Virus record (IMG/VR): IMGVR_UViG_3300047554_000135
Coordinates: 1-21,188 of that record
Reading direction: 5' to 3' (one strand)
Source of the DNA: a virus
Length of the DNA: 21,188 bases
This document shows positions 3,731 through 21,188 of the stretch, in pieces; position 1 is the stretch's first letter, and each line of letters starts with the position of its first letter. The position numbers were made by a program, and so were the translations under genes. The notes under the pieces are model-generated. The model made no database searches and was not told the origin of the DNA. It was given only the letters and a program-made list of their open reading frames with translations.

Positions 3731-3946
3731 ATGCGTACTGATTCAAAATATCTGTTAGCATTAGCGAAACAGGTCCGTGGACCAGAAATACCGTTGCCTG
3801 TATTGCAAGGGCAACCCCCTAAAATACAAGACAACAACCAGTCCATTGCTTTAGGGGCAATAAATGAAGCAAGTAAATCTGATCTGCGAAGCAAAACTGA
3901 ACCTGTCCGAAAAGGCCGCAAACGGCGAACCGACAGGAAAGATTGA
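3731..3946 (+). CDS. small overlapping ORF, unknown
   Basis: 71-residue basic ORF filling the 139-base gap between portal and protease genes and overlapping the first 83 bases of the protease gene in another frame. The first 45 codons look like a plausible protein (MRTDSKYLLALAKQV at the start, then Pro/Gln rich); the final 25 residues, which lie inside the protease gene, are Lys/Arg rich and may only reflect the other frame. No clear Shine-Dalgarno site precedes the ATG. I do not recognise the family. It may be a small real gene or just leader sequence of the protease gene. Confidence 0.35.
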   Translation: MRTDSKYLLALAKQVRGPEIPLPVLQGQPPKIQDNNQSIALGAINEASKSDLRSKTEPVRKGRKRRTDRKD

Positions 3947-4664
3947 AGCTCGCATTACCACTTGGGGCGCTCGTGAGGGCGCTGATGGCCGTAAATTCTT
4001 CTACAAGCCTGAAGGCTTCATGGAATGGATGACGGAGTTCACCAAGTCTGGTCGTCCACTCCCCATGTTCCTGAATCACAACGCTGATTCGATGCCTGTT
4101 GGCGAATGGACCGAACTTGAGATGGATGATGACGGAATGACCGCAAAAGGTCGTCTGTTCATGAACACCACCGCTGGTTCTGATCTGTACCAAGTCATGA
4201 GCGAATCCCCCACCATGTTTGGTGGCGTGTCTGTTGGCGCATACGCTGACGAATACCAGTGGGTGAAAGAAGACGGCACTCCGTTTCCTGCTGGTTCTCA
4301 AGATTATTGGGATGAAGGCTACTTCCAGATCACCAAAGGTGGTCTGCGTGAGACTAGTGTTGTGATGTACCCAAATAATCCCAAAGCAGAAGTCAAAAAG
4401 CTGGAGTATTTCCGCAATGACGGTTCTGCTGATCTGAAGGTTTTGGAAGAGGCACTGCGGGATGCAGGGCTGTCCAAGTCGGAAGCGGTTGCCGCCGCAT
4501 CCGTATTCAAGTCGGTGATCGAACAGCGTGATGCTGTTGAAAAGCCGCTTGAAGCTGCGCCGACTCAGAGTGATTCTGATGCGGAGGCAACCGAAGCAGA
4601 AATTCTCGCTGCTCTTGAGCAACGTGAACTTCTTAAACTCCTCGACAAACGACTGAAAGGTTAA
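3864..4664 (+). CDS. prohead protease (HK97 gp4-like, S78/U35 family)
   Basis: 266-residue maturation protease that cuts the N-terminal delta domain from capsid subunits and then itself inside the prohead. The catalytic pattern is visible: His72 in the FLNHNADSMPVGEW segment, Ser123 in GGVSVGA, and an acidic residue in the Gly-Gly-Leu-Arg-Glu-Thr-Ser segment (Glu163) before Met-Tyr-Pro-Asn-Asn-Pro. Residues after about 185 form a charged, helical, Glu/Ala-rich tail of the kind often found as a scaffold-like extension. The ATG at 3864 lies shortly after a GGGG sequence. It ends 2 bases before the first capsid gene, consistent with co-translation in the ratio set by each gene's own ribosome site. 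Confidence 0.93.
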   Translation: MKQVNLICEAKLNLSEKAANGEPTGKIEARITTWGAREGADGRKFFYKPEGFMEWMTEFTKSGRPLPMFLNHNADSMPVGEWTELEMDDDGMTAKGRLFMNTTAGSDLYQVMSESPTMFGGVSVGAYADEYQWVKEDGTPFPAGSQDYWDEGYFQITKGGLRETSVVMYPNNPKAEVKKLEYFRNDGSADLKVLEEALRDAGLSKSEAVAAASVFKSVIEQRDAVEKPLEAAPTQSDSDAEATEAEILAALEQRELLKLLDKRLKG

Positions 4665-4666
4665 TC

Positions 4667-6016
4667 ATGTCTAAAGAAATCATCGAAAAACTGGACGGCA
4701 TCGAAGCTAAACAAATCGAAGCTATCGCTGCTGTTGAAGCCAAAATCCCCGCTGCCGTTGAAGCTGTCAAAGCTGAGATGAGCGAAATGGTTGCTGCTCT
4801 GGAAGCTAAAGTTGCATCCGTGCAAGCTCCTGCCATCCACAAAGAGAAGGCCAAGAGCGTTCGTCAAGACGTGAACCGTCTGGTGCGCGAACAACTCAAA
4901 GAGATGGCTTCTGGCAAGTCGAACATCGACAAAGAACTGAAGATTTTCTCTGACGAGTCGCAACTGCAAGCGTACATGACTGAAGCCTCTGCTCTGACCG
5001 CTGGCGGTGATGGCAAGGGTGGTCGTACTGCTTACGATCCCGTGTTCCGCGCTCTGCGTCTGGAAAACCCTCTGCGTGGCGTGTCTCGCACCGTGGCTAC
5101 CGATGGCTCCAGCTATCAGTTCCGCGTGAAGACTGGCAACGCTGGCGCTCAGTGGGGCTACGGCATCCAGAACAACGGTTCTGCTACCACGGAAAACACT
5201 TCCATTTGGCAAATCGTGCTGAAGGACATCAACGTCCAGTTCCCGATTCGTACCGCTGCTCTGGACGACATCGACGGTCTGGAAGCCAACGTGGTTGACG
5301 ACATGCTGGCTGAATTCGCTCAAGCCGAAGCTCAGTCCATGATCTCCAACAACGACCAAACTGGCACTGGCACTGACACCGCTACTGGCGGCGCTGACGG
5401 CCTGCGCGGTCTGGACCAGTACGGTGGCGCTAACGCTACCTACACTGGTGGCACTCACTCCACCGCTGCCTTCGGCACTTCTGGTACTGGTTCCACTACC
5501 GGTCTGCATAGCCTGAACACCTATGACCAGTTGACCACCAACGGCAACACCGTGGGTGCTGGTAACGTGACCTACAAGGACATCGTTAACTTCATCTACG
5601 CTCTGCCTCAGCAGTACTGGACGCCCAACGCCAAGATCATGATGAACAACGTGTTCTTGTCGCAAGTGCGTGGTCTGGTTGACGACAACGGCGCTCCGAT
5701 CTTCAACCGTAACGAAGGTCTGTCTGTTGACGGTATCGTCGGCCAACTGTTGGGCTTCGACGTGGTTGTGAACAGCTACGTTGACGCTCCTGCACAAGCC
5801 ACCACTGGCGATGCCGGTACTACCAGCCTGTACCCCGCGTACTTCGCTGACTGGTCGCGTTTCCACACGATCATCGACCGCCTGAACATGATGGTTCGTC
5901 GCTACGACCAGACCCTGCCCGGCTATATCACCTTCTACGGTGAGAAGCGTCTGGCTACGTCTGTGCGCGATCCGTTCGCTGGCGTTCGCTATCGCTCGAC
6001 TGGCACTGCTGCCTGA
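4667..6016 (+). CDS. major capsid protein 1 (HK97 fold, with delta domain)
   Basis: 449-residue HK97-fold shell protein. Residues 1 to about 100 are a charged, Ala-rich coiled coil, the expected delta/scaffolding domain removed by the protease encoded immediately upstream. The mature part starts around residues 110-120 (GGDGKGGRTAYDPVF region), and the C-terminal end DPFAGVR is a common ending of this fold. Codon choice is strikingly uniform (GCT, CTG, GGC, CGT, AAC), as expected for the most abundant phage protein and stronger than in the neighbours. A strong terminator follows the stop codon, then a second, clearly homologous capsid gene. The exact cleavage site cannot be read from sequence alone. 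Confidence 0.95.
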   Translation: MSKEIIEKLDGIEAKQIEAIAAVEAKIPAAVEAVKAEMSEMVAALEAKVASVQAPAIHKEKAKSVRQDVNRLVREQLKEMASGKSNIDKELKIFSDESQLQAYMTEASALTAGGDGKGGRTAYDPVFRALRLENPLRGVSRTVATDGSSYQFRVKTGNAGAQWGYGIQNNGSATTENTSIWQIVLKDINVQFPIRTAALDDIDGLEANVVDDMLAEFAQAEAQSMISNNDQTGTGTDTATGGADGLRGLDQYGGANATYTGGTHSTAAFGTSGTGSTTGLHSLNTYDQLTTNGNTVGAGNVTYKDIVNFIYALPQQYWTPNAKIMMNNVFLSQVRGLVDDNGAPIFNRNEGLSVDGIVGQLLGFDVVVNSYVDAPAQATTGDAGTTSLYPAYFADWSRFHTIIDRLNMMVRRYDQTLPGYITFYGEKRLATSVRDPFAGVRYRSTGTAA

Positions 6017-6021
6017 TGAAA

Positions 6022-6059
6022 GTGGGGGCTTCGGCCCCCGCTTTTTACCCCGCTTTTTT
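6022..6059 (+). terminator. intrinsic terminator between the two capsid genes, with duplicated 3' arm
   Basis: Bases 6022-6029 (GTGGGGGC) pair with 6034-6041 (GCCCCCGC) around a TTCG tetraloop, followed by five T (6042-6046): a textbook rho-independent terminator six bases after the capsid stop codon. The 3' arm plus T-run is then repeated: CCCCGCTTTTTA at 6036-6047 recurs as CCCCGCTTTTTTA at 6048-6060, giving a second possible 3' arm and T-run. Because all downstream genes depend on transcription reaching them, it probably acts as a partial terminator or mRNA 3'-end stabiliser that raises capsid 1 output relative to later genes. Confidence 0.85.
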
Positions 6060-6069
6060 AGGAAATGCC

Positions 6070-7086
6070 ATGACCACTATCACCGAAAAAATCCTCAGCG
6101 GAATCAAAGAAGCCTACGACAAAGGCGAGAAAGTCACAATCGACCTCAAGGAAGCGTCCTCGTTGACTGGTTCCGGTTCGGGTGTCGGTGGCCGTGTTCT
6201 ATTTGATGACGCATTTGCGACTCTGCGTTACGCAAACCCTTTCCGAATCGGTTCGCGCAACGTCAAGATTTCCGAATCTGACATGCAATTCGTTGCCAAG
6301 ACTGGTAACGCTGCAAACCAAACAAACCCTTGGGGTTATCCCGTACAAAACAACACGGGCACTCCCGGAACCAACACCTCGATCTGGCAATTGCCTGTTC
6401 GTGCTGTGACTGCTCAATTGCCTATCCGCACCGCTGTGTTCTCTGATGTGAATGGCCTGCAATCCGAACTCGTTGAAGACCTGATGCTGGAATTTGCCCA
6501 GATCGAAGGCGCTTCGATGGCTATCAACGACGACCAAGCTGGTTCCACCACGACTTCGACTGGTGCTACATCTGGCCTGCGTGGTCTGGACTCGTATGCA
6601 ACTGGTTCTACCGCTGCTTACGGCACTTCTGGCACGTCCATCACCTCTGGTATTCACACGCTGGCTACCGTGGCTCAAACTGTCGGTGGCGTGACCTATG
6701 ACAACATCGTTGACATCGTGAATGCTTTCCCGAGCCAGTACTGGGCTATGCCCGGTAACGCTTGGCACATCAGCCCTGCAATGATCGATAGCCTGCGTAG
6801 CCTGAAGGATTCTCAGGGTCTGCCTCTGTTCCTCGAAATGGGTGACGAAGATGCTGCGGCTGTTGGCCGTATGTTCGGTTTCCCTGTGATCCCGAACCCC
6901 TACCTGTCCACGGACTTCCCGATCTATCTGGCTAACTGGCCCCGTTTCCTGACCATTGCTGACAATGAGGAAATGTCCATCCAGATGTTCGATCAGACCA
7001 CCCCCGGTTTTGTTACTATCTACGCAGAAAAGCGTGTAGTATCGTCCGTGCGTGATCCGTTCGCTGGTGTGCGTATGAGCGCCTAA
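6070..7086 (+). CDS. second HK97-fold major capsid paralogue (no delta domain)
   Basis: 338 residues from ATG 6070, chosen because AGGAAA lies 5-10 bases upstream; an ATG at 6016 is in frame but would translate through the terminator hairpin. It is a clear paralogue of the first capsid protein: shared blocks include TGNA, WGY-x-x-QNN, TSIWQ, Q-x-PIRTA, LRGLD, AFPSQYW versus ALPQQYW, and the ending SVRDPFAGVR. It lacks the first ~75-100 residues that form the coiled-coil delta domain in copy 1, keeping only about 40 residues before the GGRVLFDDAF segment. By analogy with T4 gp23/gp24 it might be a vertex or minor shell subunit, but this is inference; a plain second shell subunit or an inactive copy is possible, though the frame is intact. 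Confidence 0.88.
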   Translation: MTTITEKILSGIKEAYDKGEKVTIDLKEASSLTGSGSGVGGRVLFDDAFATLRYANPFRIGSRNVKISESDMQFVAKTGNAANQTNPWGYPVQNNTGTPGTNTSIWQLPVRAVTAQLPIRTAVFSDVNGLQSELVEDLMLEFAQIEGASMAINDDQAGSTTTSTGATSGLRGLDSYATGSTAAYGTSGTSITSGIHTLATVAQTVGGVTYDNIVDIVNAFPSQYWAMPGNAWHISPAMIDSLRSLKDSQGLPLFLEMGDEDAAAVGRMFGFPVIPNPYLSTDFPIYLANWPRFLTIADNEEMSIQMFDQTTPGFVTIYAEKRVVSSVRDPFAGVRMSA

Positions 7087-7096
7087 GAGGTGAAAT

Positions 7097-7765
7097 ATGG
7101 CAGTTGATAATGTTGTCGGCTACCCGTTTGGGGCACAGACTCGTAATCCGTTCAACTATGTAAAGGTTGAACAGACGAATCGTGATGTCTCGACCAACTG
7201 GCTCACTGCCAATGAAATCACCGAACACCTGAACTTGTTTGACGATGAGAGTCAGGACACCTATGTTCTGTCTCTTGAGCTTGCAACTCGCATGGCGATT
7301 GAGGATTACCTAGGTATGTCCATCTTCGCCACGTCATACAGGGTTTACTACGGTGGAGAGAGCCTTGCTGCTGCGCCAGCGAGTCTCGATCTGCCTGAAG
7401 TGAGTCAGGCTTCGGTGTCTTCTCCAAACCCTGTCACGATCAGTTCTGTGGCCTATTGGAATGATTCCACCCCTTCCGTGCTGACGACTGTTCCAAGCAA
7501 CCAGTACTACTACGATGCCTCTGGCAACAAAATCGTAGTGGCTGGTCTGCCGACAGACATCAACACCGCGATGACTGCTCCGATTGTTGTGAACTACACA
7601 GTTGCAGCGAATCCGCTTGCCTCATATCCTGTGATTAAGCAAGCTGCTTTGTTGCTTCTGACGCATTTTTACAACAACCGTGCAAACGCAACGGAAACGA
7701 AGCTCAAGGACATTCCTTTTGGGGTTCATACGCTTCTTCGTGCATACCGTCCATTGGTAATGTGA
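7097..7765 (+). CDS. head-tail connector / adaptor protein (gp6-like)
   Basis: 222-residue protein resembling the gp6-like head-tail connector group (also described as phiE125 gp8-like). These proteins form a ring below the portal. Residues 40-75 carry the typical helical start (Thr-Ala-Asn-Glu-Ile ... Asp-Asp-Glu-Ser ... Ala-Thr-Arg-Met-Ala-Ile-Glu-Asp-Tyr-Leu-Gly), then a beta-rich middle and a C-terminal helix (PVIKQAALLLLTHFYNNR) ending with the usual 'P.G.h.LL..YRP' pattern. The ATG at 7097 has a strong GAGGTGA site. A homing endonuclease gene has been inserted directly after its stop codon. Confidence 0.87.
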   Translation: MAVDNVVGYPFGAQTRNPFNYVKVEQTNRDVSTNWLTANEITEHLNLFDDESQDTYVLSLELATRMAIEDYLGMSIFATSYRVYYGGESLAAAPASLDLPEVSQASVSSPNPVTISSVAYWNDSTPSVLTTVPSNQYYYDASGNKIVVAGLPTDINTAMTAPIVVNYTVAANPLASYPVIKQAALLLLTHFYNNRANATETKLKDIPFGVHTLLRAYRPLVM

Positions 7766-8379
7766 GTATGTTTGTATATTGGATTCACTTGCCAGAACAC
7801 ACTGATATGACTGTTGATGGTTATGTTGGTGTTGCAAAAGATTTTGAGCAGCGCATGTTTGCTCACAAGTCTTGTGCAAAAACTGGCAAGGATTACACTT
7901 TATACAATTCCATCAGAAAGCACGGATGGGATGCTTTGGTCAAAGAGATTGTTGCCATTTCAGATGAAAATTATTGTCTTGAACTGGAAAAGAAGCTAAG
8001 GCCAAAAGAGAGGATTGGCTGGAACATTGCAATTGGTGGAGGTATTTCAGGCGCAATCCTGAAAGGCAAAAAGCAGTCAGTAGAACATATTGCGAATAGA
8101 AAAAAAGCATTGGTTGGAAGAGTATCTGGCATGAAAGGCAAAAAGATGCCTCCAGAGTCAATGGAAAGAACAATGAAATTTGTTCGAGGAATTCCAAAGA
8201 CAGATGAGTGCAAACGAAAACTTGCTCTTTCAAAAAACAAGCCTTTGATGGTCAATGGTATAGTCTATGCAAGCTGGAAAGAGGCAAGCGAACATACCGG
8301 AATACCAACTGGTAGCATTTCCTATCTTCTCAAACATAAGCCAGCCAAAAGCAAATGGGCTTCTTATGAATTGTCTGAG
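7763..8379 (+). mobile_element. inserted homing endonuclease cassette bounded by TGAG
   Basis: The four bases TGAG occur at 7763-7766, starting with the stop codon of the adaptor gene, and at 8376-8379, inside the end of the endonuclease gene. Removing the 613 bases between one copy and the other leaves the adaptor stop codon directly overlapping a GAGGTGA ribosome site eight to ten bases before the ATG of the head-closure gene, the same style of junction as at 7087-7099. This suggests a clean insertion at an intergenic junction. A four-base match can arise by chance, so this is an inference. Confidence 0.5.
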
Positions 8380-8388
8380 GTGATGTAA
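7768..8388 (+). CDS. GIY-YIG homing endonuclease with NUMOD motifs
   Basis: 206 residues from ATG 7768. The N-terminal nuclease shows the two-part signature VYWI (residues 3-6) and GYVGV (18-22), with the expected catalytic Arg29, an acidic residue in LELEKK (Glu72/Glu74) and Asn86 in GWNIAIGGG. Next come three NUMOD3-like DNA-binding repeats (about 99-117, 124-141, 141-158; pattern Gly-Lys-x-x-Ser/Pro-x-Glu) and a NUMOD1-like helix-turn-helix (about 162-191, ending GSISYLLKHK). Together these mark a free-standing homing endonuclease as in I-TevI relatives. The gene is visibly more AT rich and uses different codons from its neighbours, as expected of an invader. It has no strong ribosome site, and its last codons carry the Shine-Dalgarno site of the next gene. 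A GTG at 7762 is an alternative start. Confidence 0.92.
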   Translation: MFVYWIHLPEHTDMTVDGYVGVAKDFEQRMFAHKSCAKTGKDYTLYNSIRKHGWDALVKEIVAISDENYCLELEKKLRPKERIGWNIAIGGGISGAILKGKKQSVEHIANRKKALVGRVSGMKGKKMPPESMERTMKFVRGIPKTDECKRKLALSKNKPLMVNGIVYASWKEASEHTGIPTGSISYLLKHKPAKSKWASYELSEVM

Positions 8389-18732: not shown

Positions 18733-19338
18733 ATGACACAAGCCTATAACCTTTCGCAACTTGCGAATAATCTCAATTCAAGCGGTCAGTTGGATGCAAC
18801 TGACGGCCTTGTAAATGCCGTTCCAGTTGCAAATGGAGGTACTGGGGCTTCCTCGGCATCTGCTGCTCGTAGCAATCTTGGATTGGTTATTGGCACAAAC
18901 GTGCCAAGTACAACAGGTGGCGGAGCATCTGGAAATTGGAACATTAACATTACTGGTAATGCTGCAACTGCAACAAGTGCAACAAGTGCAACTACTGCAA
19001 CAAACGCTACTAATGCCACTAATGCTACCAATGCAACAAATGCAACAAATGCAACAAATGCAACTTATGCAACCACAGCAGGTAATGCCTTGGGATATGG
19101 TCAATCATGGCAAAACATGAGTGGATCAAGAGCAGTTGATGTAACCTATACAAATTCAACTGGCCGAACAATTTTTATTGCTGTTGATACAAACTTTGAT
19201 TACGACACAAGAATTTATATCAATGACGTTTGGATTGTTGTTGCAACCGGATCGGTCTCGGCCCCAATCCCTTCTGGGTCAACCTACAAAGTAACATCTG
19301 CATACTCTACTGTCAACATTTGGATGGAGTTACGCTGA
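18733..19338 (+). CDS. short tail fibre with Thr-Asn-Ala repeat
   Basis: 201-residue fibre-like protein. The N-terminus (about 1-53) has the common fibre adaptor motif VANGGTGASSASAARSNLGL, the middle (54-76) has a WNINITGNA segment, residues 78-114 are a run of Ala-Thr-Asn/Ser triplets (ATN repeated), and the C-terminus (120-201) is a beta-rich head, with VTYTNSTGRTIFIAVD and YINDVW, likely receptor binding. The same general layout (GNAxxAT, then repeated triplets, then a globular head) is typical of trimeric fibres. The C-terminal head and the following small genes are more AT rich than the tail operon. GGA precedes the ATG. Confidence 0.8.
   Translation: MTQAYNLSQLANNLNSSGQLDATDGLVNAVPVANGGTGASSASAARSNLGLVIGTNVPSTTGGGASGNWNINITGNAATATSATSATTATNATNATNATNATNATNATNATYATTAGNALGYGQSWQNMSGSRAVDVTYTNSTGRTIFIAVDTNFDYDTRIYINDVWIVVATGSVSAPIPSGSTYKVTSAYSTVNIWMELR
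18961..19080 (+). repeat. coding tandem repeat, nine-base AATGCAACA unit
   Basis: Inside the short fibre gene, units of six to nine bases built on GCAAC(A/T)(A/G)(A/C)T recur; the clearest part is four near-perfect copies of the nine-base unit AATGCAACA around 19028-19065, flanked by decayed copies. Each unit encodes Asn-Ala-Thr, so gain or loss of a unit leaves the frame intact. This is a plausible site for length variation by replication slippage. Confidence 0.85.
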
Positions 19339-20368: not shown

Positions 20369-21188
20369 ATGGCTAATTTGAATGTGACCGTAGTTGACGG
20401 TAACAATATCAATGTCCAAGTAACCCCAACTGCAAGCAATGTTATTGATGTTGATGGTGGCATTGGCGCTGGAGCAATTGTCCTTGAATTGACACCGCCT
20501 CCAACACAAGTCATCAACATTGACCGTGGTGTGGCTGGTAACGGTATTGTCAGTATTACGCAGACTGACATTGGTGATTACGCATACCTCGACATCGAGT
20601 ACACCAATGGCACGACAGAGCAGCTTGGTCCGATTGGTGTCAGCAGTGCCATCCTAATCGACATTGAAAACAACATGGTCAGTATCACGGCTGTTGCCAA
20701 TGACCTGACTGTCATCAATGATGTCTATGCAAACCTTGCAGCTATCAATGATGTCGAAGCAAACATGGCTGCAATCATTGCTGCGCCTGCTGAAGCCGCT
20801 GCTGCCGCTGCAAGTGCTGCCGCTGCGCTTGTTTCTGAAACAAACGCTGCTGCGTCTGAAGCTGCTGCTTCTGCTTCTGAAACTTCCGCAGCAATCTCTG
20901 CTGCTGCCGCACTTGCTTCTGAAAATGCAGCCTCTGTTTCCGAGGCAAATGCCCTTCAAAGCGCAAATAACTCTGCTGCAAGCGCCGCTGCTGCTCTTGT
21001 TTCTCAGAATGCTGCCGCTGCTTCTGCTGGCGCTTCTCTTGCATCTCAAAATGCCGCAGCATCTTCAGCCGCTGCCGCACTTGTATCTGAAAATGCGGCC
21101 GCTGTTTCAGCTGCTGATGCCGCAACAAGCGAGGTAAACTCTGCCGCTTCTGCCGCAGCAGCCCTTGCTTCTGAAAACGCTGCTGCTG
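20369..21188 (+). CDS. tail fibre with Ala-rich coiled coil, cut by window end
   Basis: The frame opens at ATG 20369 after an AAGGGGAAATC ribosome site and continues without a stop to the window end, giving 273 residues of an incomplete protein. Residues 1-105 form a beta-rich N-terminal domain (MANLNVTVVDGNNINVQV onward), 110-137 have the repeating 'DLTVINDVYANLAAINDVEAN' motif seen in phage tail fibre attachment regions, and from about 138 a long run of Ala-rich heptads follows, repeating units such as SAAAALVSENAAA. This matches the stalk region of side fibres such as lambda Stf-type proteins. A receptor-binding C-terminus should lie to the right of the window. Confidence 0.85.
   Translation, partial: MANLNVTVVDGNNINVQVTPTASNVIDVDGGIGAGAIVLELTPPPTQVINIDRGVAGNGIVSITQTDIGDYAYLDIEYTNGTTEQLGPIGVSSAILIDIENNMVSITAVANDLTVINDVYANLAAINDVEANMAAIIAAPAEAAAAAASAAAALVSETNAAASEAAASASETSAAISAAAALASENAASVSEANALQSANNSAASAAAALVSQNAAAASAGASLASQNAAASSAAAALVSENAAAVSAADAATSEVNSAASAAAALASENAAA
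20780..21188 (+). repeat. Ala-rich coding repeat in the fibre stalk
   Basis: From codon 138 of the last gene onward, units of about 14-15 codons of the type 'Ala-Ala-Ala-Leu-Val/Ala-Ser-Glu-Asn-Ala-Ala-x-Ser' recur imperfectly (the motif ALVSE, ALASE or ALVSQ appears near 20829, 20909, 20993 and further at 21079 and 21167). The GCT/GCC/GCA codons vary so the DNA is only partly repetitive, yet the protein pattern is regular, typical of a trimeric coiled-coil stalk. Reading other frames here gives long Leu- or Arg-rich ORFs that are shadows. Confidence 0.75.

Follow-up and report, generated by a model that had tools for sequence, protein, structure and literature searches.

It is a classic question how a single capsid fold can build hexamers as well as pentamers. 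The question is raised here by a virus record in which two HK97-fold capsid genes (termed copy 1 and copy 2) lie in tandem: what might the second gene, which lacks most of the delta-like N-terminal region of the first, contribute to the phage head?

Two capsid genes in one head module

The window (the whole 21,188-base virus record that was analysed) holds a head and tail module, and the order of its genes is given along the one strand that was read. Genes for the small and large terminase subunits are followed by those for the portal, an S78 prohead protease, copy 1 and copy 2, and 3' of copy 2 come genes for a head-tail adaptor, a GIY-YIG homing endonuclease, a head completion protein and the tail. 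The prohead maturation protease (Peptidase_S78; positions 3864–4664, plus strand) was identified by PF04586 (E=1.5e-9) and by the head maturation protease families phrog_3244 and phrog_80. Copy 1, the major capsid protein (449 aa; 4667–6016), has orthologues in all relatives; it lies on the same strand as copy 2, its HK97-fold capsid paralogue (338 aa; 6070–7086). The homing endonuclease gene (7762–8388) is free-standing, between the adaptor and head completion genes. The tail fibre region (20369–21187 and 18733–19338) encodes low-complexity repeat proteins (Ala/Ser-rich, and with Asn-Ala-Thr repeats).

Both copies match HK97-type major capsid profiles above cut-off over the mature fold, scoring 94.1 bits (copy 1) and 76.0 bits (copy 2) with PF05065 (curated cut-off 24.2), and 112 and 73 bits with TIGR01554 (cut-off 27.5); the same holds for the two proteins of Methylophilaceae phage P19250A, a relative described below. 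The copies align to each other with 42% identity over 326 residues (230 bits, E=3e-76), and their family profiles align with 100% probability when compared profile against profile (E=1e-81). These results bear out the original prediction that two adjacent, intact capsid genes resemble one another along the mature fold. Among capsid families, PF05065 was the only match, even at E-values up to 10, and descent from T4 gp24 was rejected on this ground and on the 42% alignment of the copies with each other. The two families have 87 positions in common that are conserved to at least 90% in each; another 29 are fixed, but with a different residue in each copy type. The 87 common positions take in the N-arm and the presumed E-loop region, as would be expected if copy 2 still tiles a shell.

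AlphaFold2 models built from 24-row alignments had a mean pLDDT of 46.7 for copy 2 and 41.2 for copy 1, and were confident in the A domain alone. In both models this domain matches HK97-fold capsids (SaPI1, R4C, RcGTA and encapsulins) with Z of about 10 over ~115 residues, and T4 chains were found only as distant structural matches. By sequence profile, the RcGTA capsid protein is the closest solved relative of both copies.

The intergenic hairpin and the N terminus of copy 2

A mechanically called open reading frame for copy 2 opens at position 6016, inside the copy 1 stop codon (TGATG). We consider the ATG at 6070, which gives the 338 aa product, most likely to be the actual start, as codons 1–18 from 6016 would read through a hairpin at 6022–6046, a Shine-Dalgarno sequence (AGGAA) is found at 6060–6064, and the frame between the genes is closed in 66 of 93 relatives. 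The arrangement of hairpin, Shine-Dalgarno sequence and ATG recurs in relatives, with an intergenic gap usually of 42–68 nt and a Shine-Dalgarno-like motif in 88 of the 93, in agreement with the earlier claim that copy 2 has a separate ribosome site. A frameshift that would extend copy 1 into copy 2 was considered as well and rejected as not conserved: the copy 2 frame runs open back across the copy 1 stop codon in just 27 of 93 relatives, and the frame of one gene relative to the other is not constant.

In all orthologues, copy 1 has an N-terminal region of ~100 residues ahead of the fold, with the S78 protease gene adjoining upstream. In the window this region was placed at 4667–4981 (plus strand) from alignments and from the secondary structure of the low-confidence model, in which alone helices are seen at residues 3–25, 27–51, 65–81 and 97–109. 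A helical N-terminal region would be as expected of the HK97 delta domain, and we refer to it as delta-like; the S78 protease would be the upstream partner that cleaves it. No comparable ~100-residue region is found in the copy 2 family, in which the start lies only ~28 residues ahead of the conserved N-arm. The claim that copy 2 lacks the N-terminal domain of copy 1 was thus correct for copy 1 residues ~1–65 and ~79–91, which have no counterparts, but too broad as worded, as copy 2 retains one short N-terminal helix and the conserved N-arm (EASxLTGSGSGxGGR). Three copy 1 loops are also missing from copy 2 (residues 258–266, 289–296 and 373–385).

In six loci (L063, at 5686–6012; L068; L072; L073; L075; L076), a phrog_2859 domain of ~100 residues stands at the N terminus of copy 2 and replaces the delta region. 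The same domain opens capsid-protein ORFs in Synechococcus phages S-CBS1 and S-CBS3 (836 aa in S-CBS3) and in Roseobacter CRP phages (CRP-406). Its fusion to copy 2 would fit a location in the head.

Directly after the copy 1 stop codon lies the hairpin GTGGGGGC-TTCG-GCCCCCGC-TTTTT (6022–6046, plus strand; fold of -21.1 kcal/mol), which has the sequence features of an intrinsic terminator: a GC-rich stem, a short loop, a U-tract and compensated pairing. A terminator-like hairpin was found behind copy 1 in all but one of the distinct loci of a first set (100 of 101) and in 84 of 85 in a second, more divergent set, where the single exception (L201) has the stem with a weak T-tract. The frequency after seven other head-module genes that served as controls (TerL, portal, protease, copy 2, adaptor, head completion and putative tail terminator) is 0–2%, and it is on these controls that the weight is placed, because the hairpin finder selects for paired stems. 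Among 53 distinct hairpins, alternative pairs occur at every stem position with pairing kept, and the loops are mostly UUCG, GAAA or UACG. A terminator scan of the window did not report the hairpin at 6022–6046, probably because pairing between the A and T tracts on either side uses up the U-tract. In two loci, a related GIY-YIG endonuclease gene is inserted exactly between the hairpin and copy 2 (L010, 1544–2086; L128, about 5920–6530), and the hairpin stays beside copy 1.

From its sequence, we infer that the hairpin attenuates transcription past copy 1, and its conservation at this site leads to the prediction that copy 1 is the major and copy 2 the minor product. A hairpin of this kind would reduce the expression of every late gene that follows it, copy 2 being one among them, and is compatible with copy 2 being any kind of minor protein.

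Relatives and history of the capsid pair

Phages with the capsid pair form a family that is widespread in freshwater and marine settings. More than 200 loci were found in IMG/VR and MAG contigs, and among 50,697 phage records the sole close relative was Methylophilaceae phage P19250A (59.7% identity for copy 1, 53.7% for copy 2). All other phage records matched only beyond E=1e-4, and no single-copy relatives that would date the duplication were found. P19250A has been isolated, and its complete genome has both copies in the same order, with a hairpin after copy 1 and with copy 2 annotated as a 'hypothetical protein'; a literature search returned nothing on its virion proteins and no proteomics or cryo-EM for any family member.

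Copy 2 is present in 72 of 72 and 124 of 124 loci picked by copy 1 alone, counting loci with at least 400 nt downstream and with some contigs belonging to both sets. Conversely, loci picked by copy 2 all have copy 1, cuts at contig edges excepted. A class-wide search of bacterial genomes, meant to gauge how often PF05065 genes stand in tandem, recovered in genome G001 a single copy where two are known.

Several individual records deserve mention in their own right. One contig has a single in-frame TAG in copy 1 (L046, 4941–4943) and another a single in-frame TAA in copy 2 (L078, 6430–6432), both probably sequencing errors. Two capsid loci of different identities (L142 and L206) lie on IMGVR_UViG_3300022748_000017, which at 75,987 bp is about twice the usual genome length and is two genomes joined or co-assembled. 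One family contig (L087) was binned in a MAG of the archaeon Nitrosotalea, probably through a binning error. The deposited genome of phage Venkman (MT375522; L161) has a podovirus-type head module with a scaffold gene and gave no capsid match to the family of P19250A, although a similar synteny has been described (PMC8163748).

A tree was built from 62 pairs. In it, one branch with support of 100 separates the copy 1 from the copy 2 sequences, and the stems are long, at 1.34 and 0.64 changes per site. This two-sided topology indicates that the gene was duplicated once, before the family diversified, and that the copies have not been homogenised afterwards; the duplication that the original prediction proposed to date by a tree is thus old and common to the family. 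Measured against the window, each copy has a median dN/dS of about 0.13 (22 pairs, dS below 1.8), and purifying selection acts on both. The median dN is 0.26 for copy 2 and 0.15 for the mature part of copy 1. Co-evolution of the copies stricter than with the portal was not found, as their distances correlate at r=0.58, compared with 0.60 and 0.68 with the portal. An origin of the copies in unrelated phages, with degeneration of copy 2, had been named beforehand as one outcome that would overturn the proposal; it is excluded, as the closest relative of each copy is the other one and copy 2 is under constraint.

Possible roles of copy 2 and known two-protein shells

The single ancient duplication, universal co-occurrence, purifying selection, type-specific residues and conserved hairpin all support the earlier view that copy 2 is specialised, and it is very probably a functional, minor, structural paralogue. 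The reading that we favour as the simplest, with a probability of roughly 50%, is that copy 2 has become a minor subunit dedicated to the shell, and most likely the protein of the pentameric vertices and a separately evolved counterpart of T4 gp24; on this reading it would be present in the virion and located at the vertices. In its favour are the whole-fold homology, the A-domain structural matches, the universal pairing, the single duplication, the constraint on both copies, the shared and type-specific residues, the hairpin and the parallel with T4 propeptides described below. None of these computed results separates a pentamer position from a hexamer or other one.

According to this proposal, an ancient tandem duplication of the capsid gene would have given rise to a two-protein HK97-fold shell in siphophages. 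Copy 1, carrying its own delta-like scaffold region, would be made in excess, with most transcripts ending at the hairpin, and would form hexamers. Copy 2 would be made in smaller amounts by read-through and from its own ribosome site, and would co-assemble as a minor subunit, most likely in vertex pentamers, accounting for about 55 of 415 subunits if T=7, a number suggested by genomes of ~38–39 kb. Its assembly into the procapsid would rely on the delta-like region of copy 1 and on the portal. As a broader and slightly more tentative suggestion, a large family of aquatic siphophages may have independently evolved separate HK97-fold proteins for hexamers and vertices; the vertex paralogue would have lost its built-in scaffold, and a conserved terminator between the genes would set its dose. 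One observation counts against a vertex role: a simple penton would not need the extra domain of ~100 aa found in six loci.

Copy 2 might instead be a minor shell subunit without being a penton, mixing with copy 1 at no set position in hexamers and pentamers or entering only some hexamers, and so tuning stability or head size. The similarity of the copies (42% identity, compared with 17–20% for gp23 and gp24) and the N-arm and presumed E-loop region kept in both would suit such mixing, and the two-component encapsulin of S. lydicus illustrates that irregular mixed shells are possible for HK97-fold paralogues (PMC12407261). We nevertheless regard this as unlikely, because one ancient split, 29 type-specific residues and universal retention suggest roles that are not interchangeable. 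A little less likely again is a specialised head part outside the regular lattice: for example, a protein present in few copies that sits at the portal vertex or controls assembly, or else a transient factor that is lost as the head matures. The position of the gene between those for the major capsid protein and head-tail adaptor, the missing delta-like region and the occasional fusion to phrog_2859, which also starts Synechococcus and Roseobacter capsid-protein ORFs, all point in this direction, but constraint spans the whole copy 2 fold, and the literature searched offered no precedent for an HK97-fold portal-ring protein. That each copy builds its own particle type, for example of a different size, with the two used singly, is very improbable. 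Each is a full-length HK97-type protein with a ribosome site of its own, but copy 2 is without the delta-like region, no distinct gene for a scaffold can be recognised beside it and the locus contains nothing that suggests a switch. Finally, although copy 2 has the higher dN (0.26, against 0.15 for the mature part of copy 1) and isolated in-frame stops occur in the single contigs L046 and L078, a pseudogene, an assembly artefact or a recent redundant duplicate is ruled out for practical purposes by retention in every copy-1-selected locus, the tree, the dN/dS of about 0.13 and the presence of copy 2 in the complete genome of the isolated phage P19250A.

If copy 2 is indeed a vertex subunit, the residues that decide between vertex and face would become directly testable, as would the entry of a shell protein without a delta region into the procapsid, and the hairpin would represent a simple genetic device for setting a subunit ratio.

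Among known systems, the capsids of RcGTA and of the marine siphophage R4C resemble the pair in that both are among the best A-domain matches, RcGTA being the closest solved relative by sequence; they differ in that the PDB entries matched name no second capsid paralogue. The S. lydicus Family 2B encapsulin, like the pair, consists of two HK97-fold shell paralogues (Enc1 and Enc2) from one locus that are expected in one shell (PMC12407261). However, encapsulins are cellular compartments without a portal, delta region or protease, and Enc1 and Enc2 mix irregularly.

The T4 shell is built from gp23 hexamers and gp24 vertex pentamers, gp24 having probably arisen by duplication of gp23, and the T4 protease removes 65 N-terminal residues of gp23 and 10 of gp24 (PMC9958956). 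This asymmetry lends weight to the original analogy with gp23 and gp24: in both systems HK97-fold paralogues are accompanied by a prohead protease, with a long propeptide on the major protein and a short one or none on the minor protein. Unlike the T4 proteins, the pair described here belongs to the PF05065/TIGR01554 family, with the RcGTA capsid as closest solved relative; its members are 42% rather than 17–20% identical, and they are encoded in small, siphophage-type genomes near 38 kb with a terminator-like hairpin between the genes and a predicted vertex role for copy 2. According to a 2025 study of encapsulins, no virus other than T4 has two HK97-fold proteins that take separate roles (PMC12407261), in line with the expectation that a mixed shell is unusual for HK97-type phages. 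Should the proposal hold, a two-role HK97 shell would have arisen independently for a second time in this family, in which the copies are still 42% identical and one member, P19250A, is in culture.
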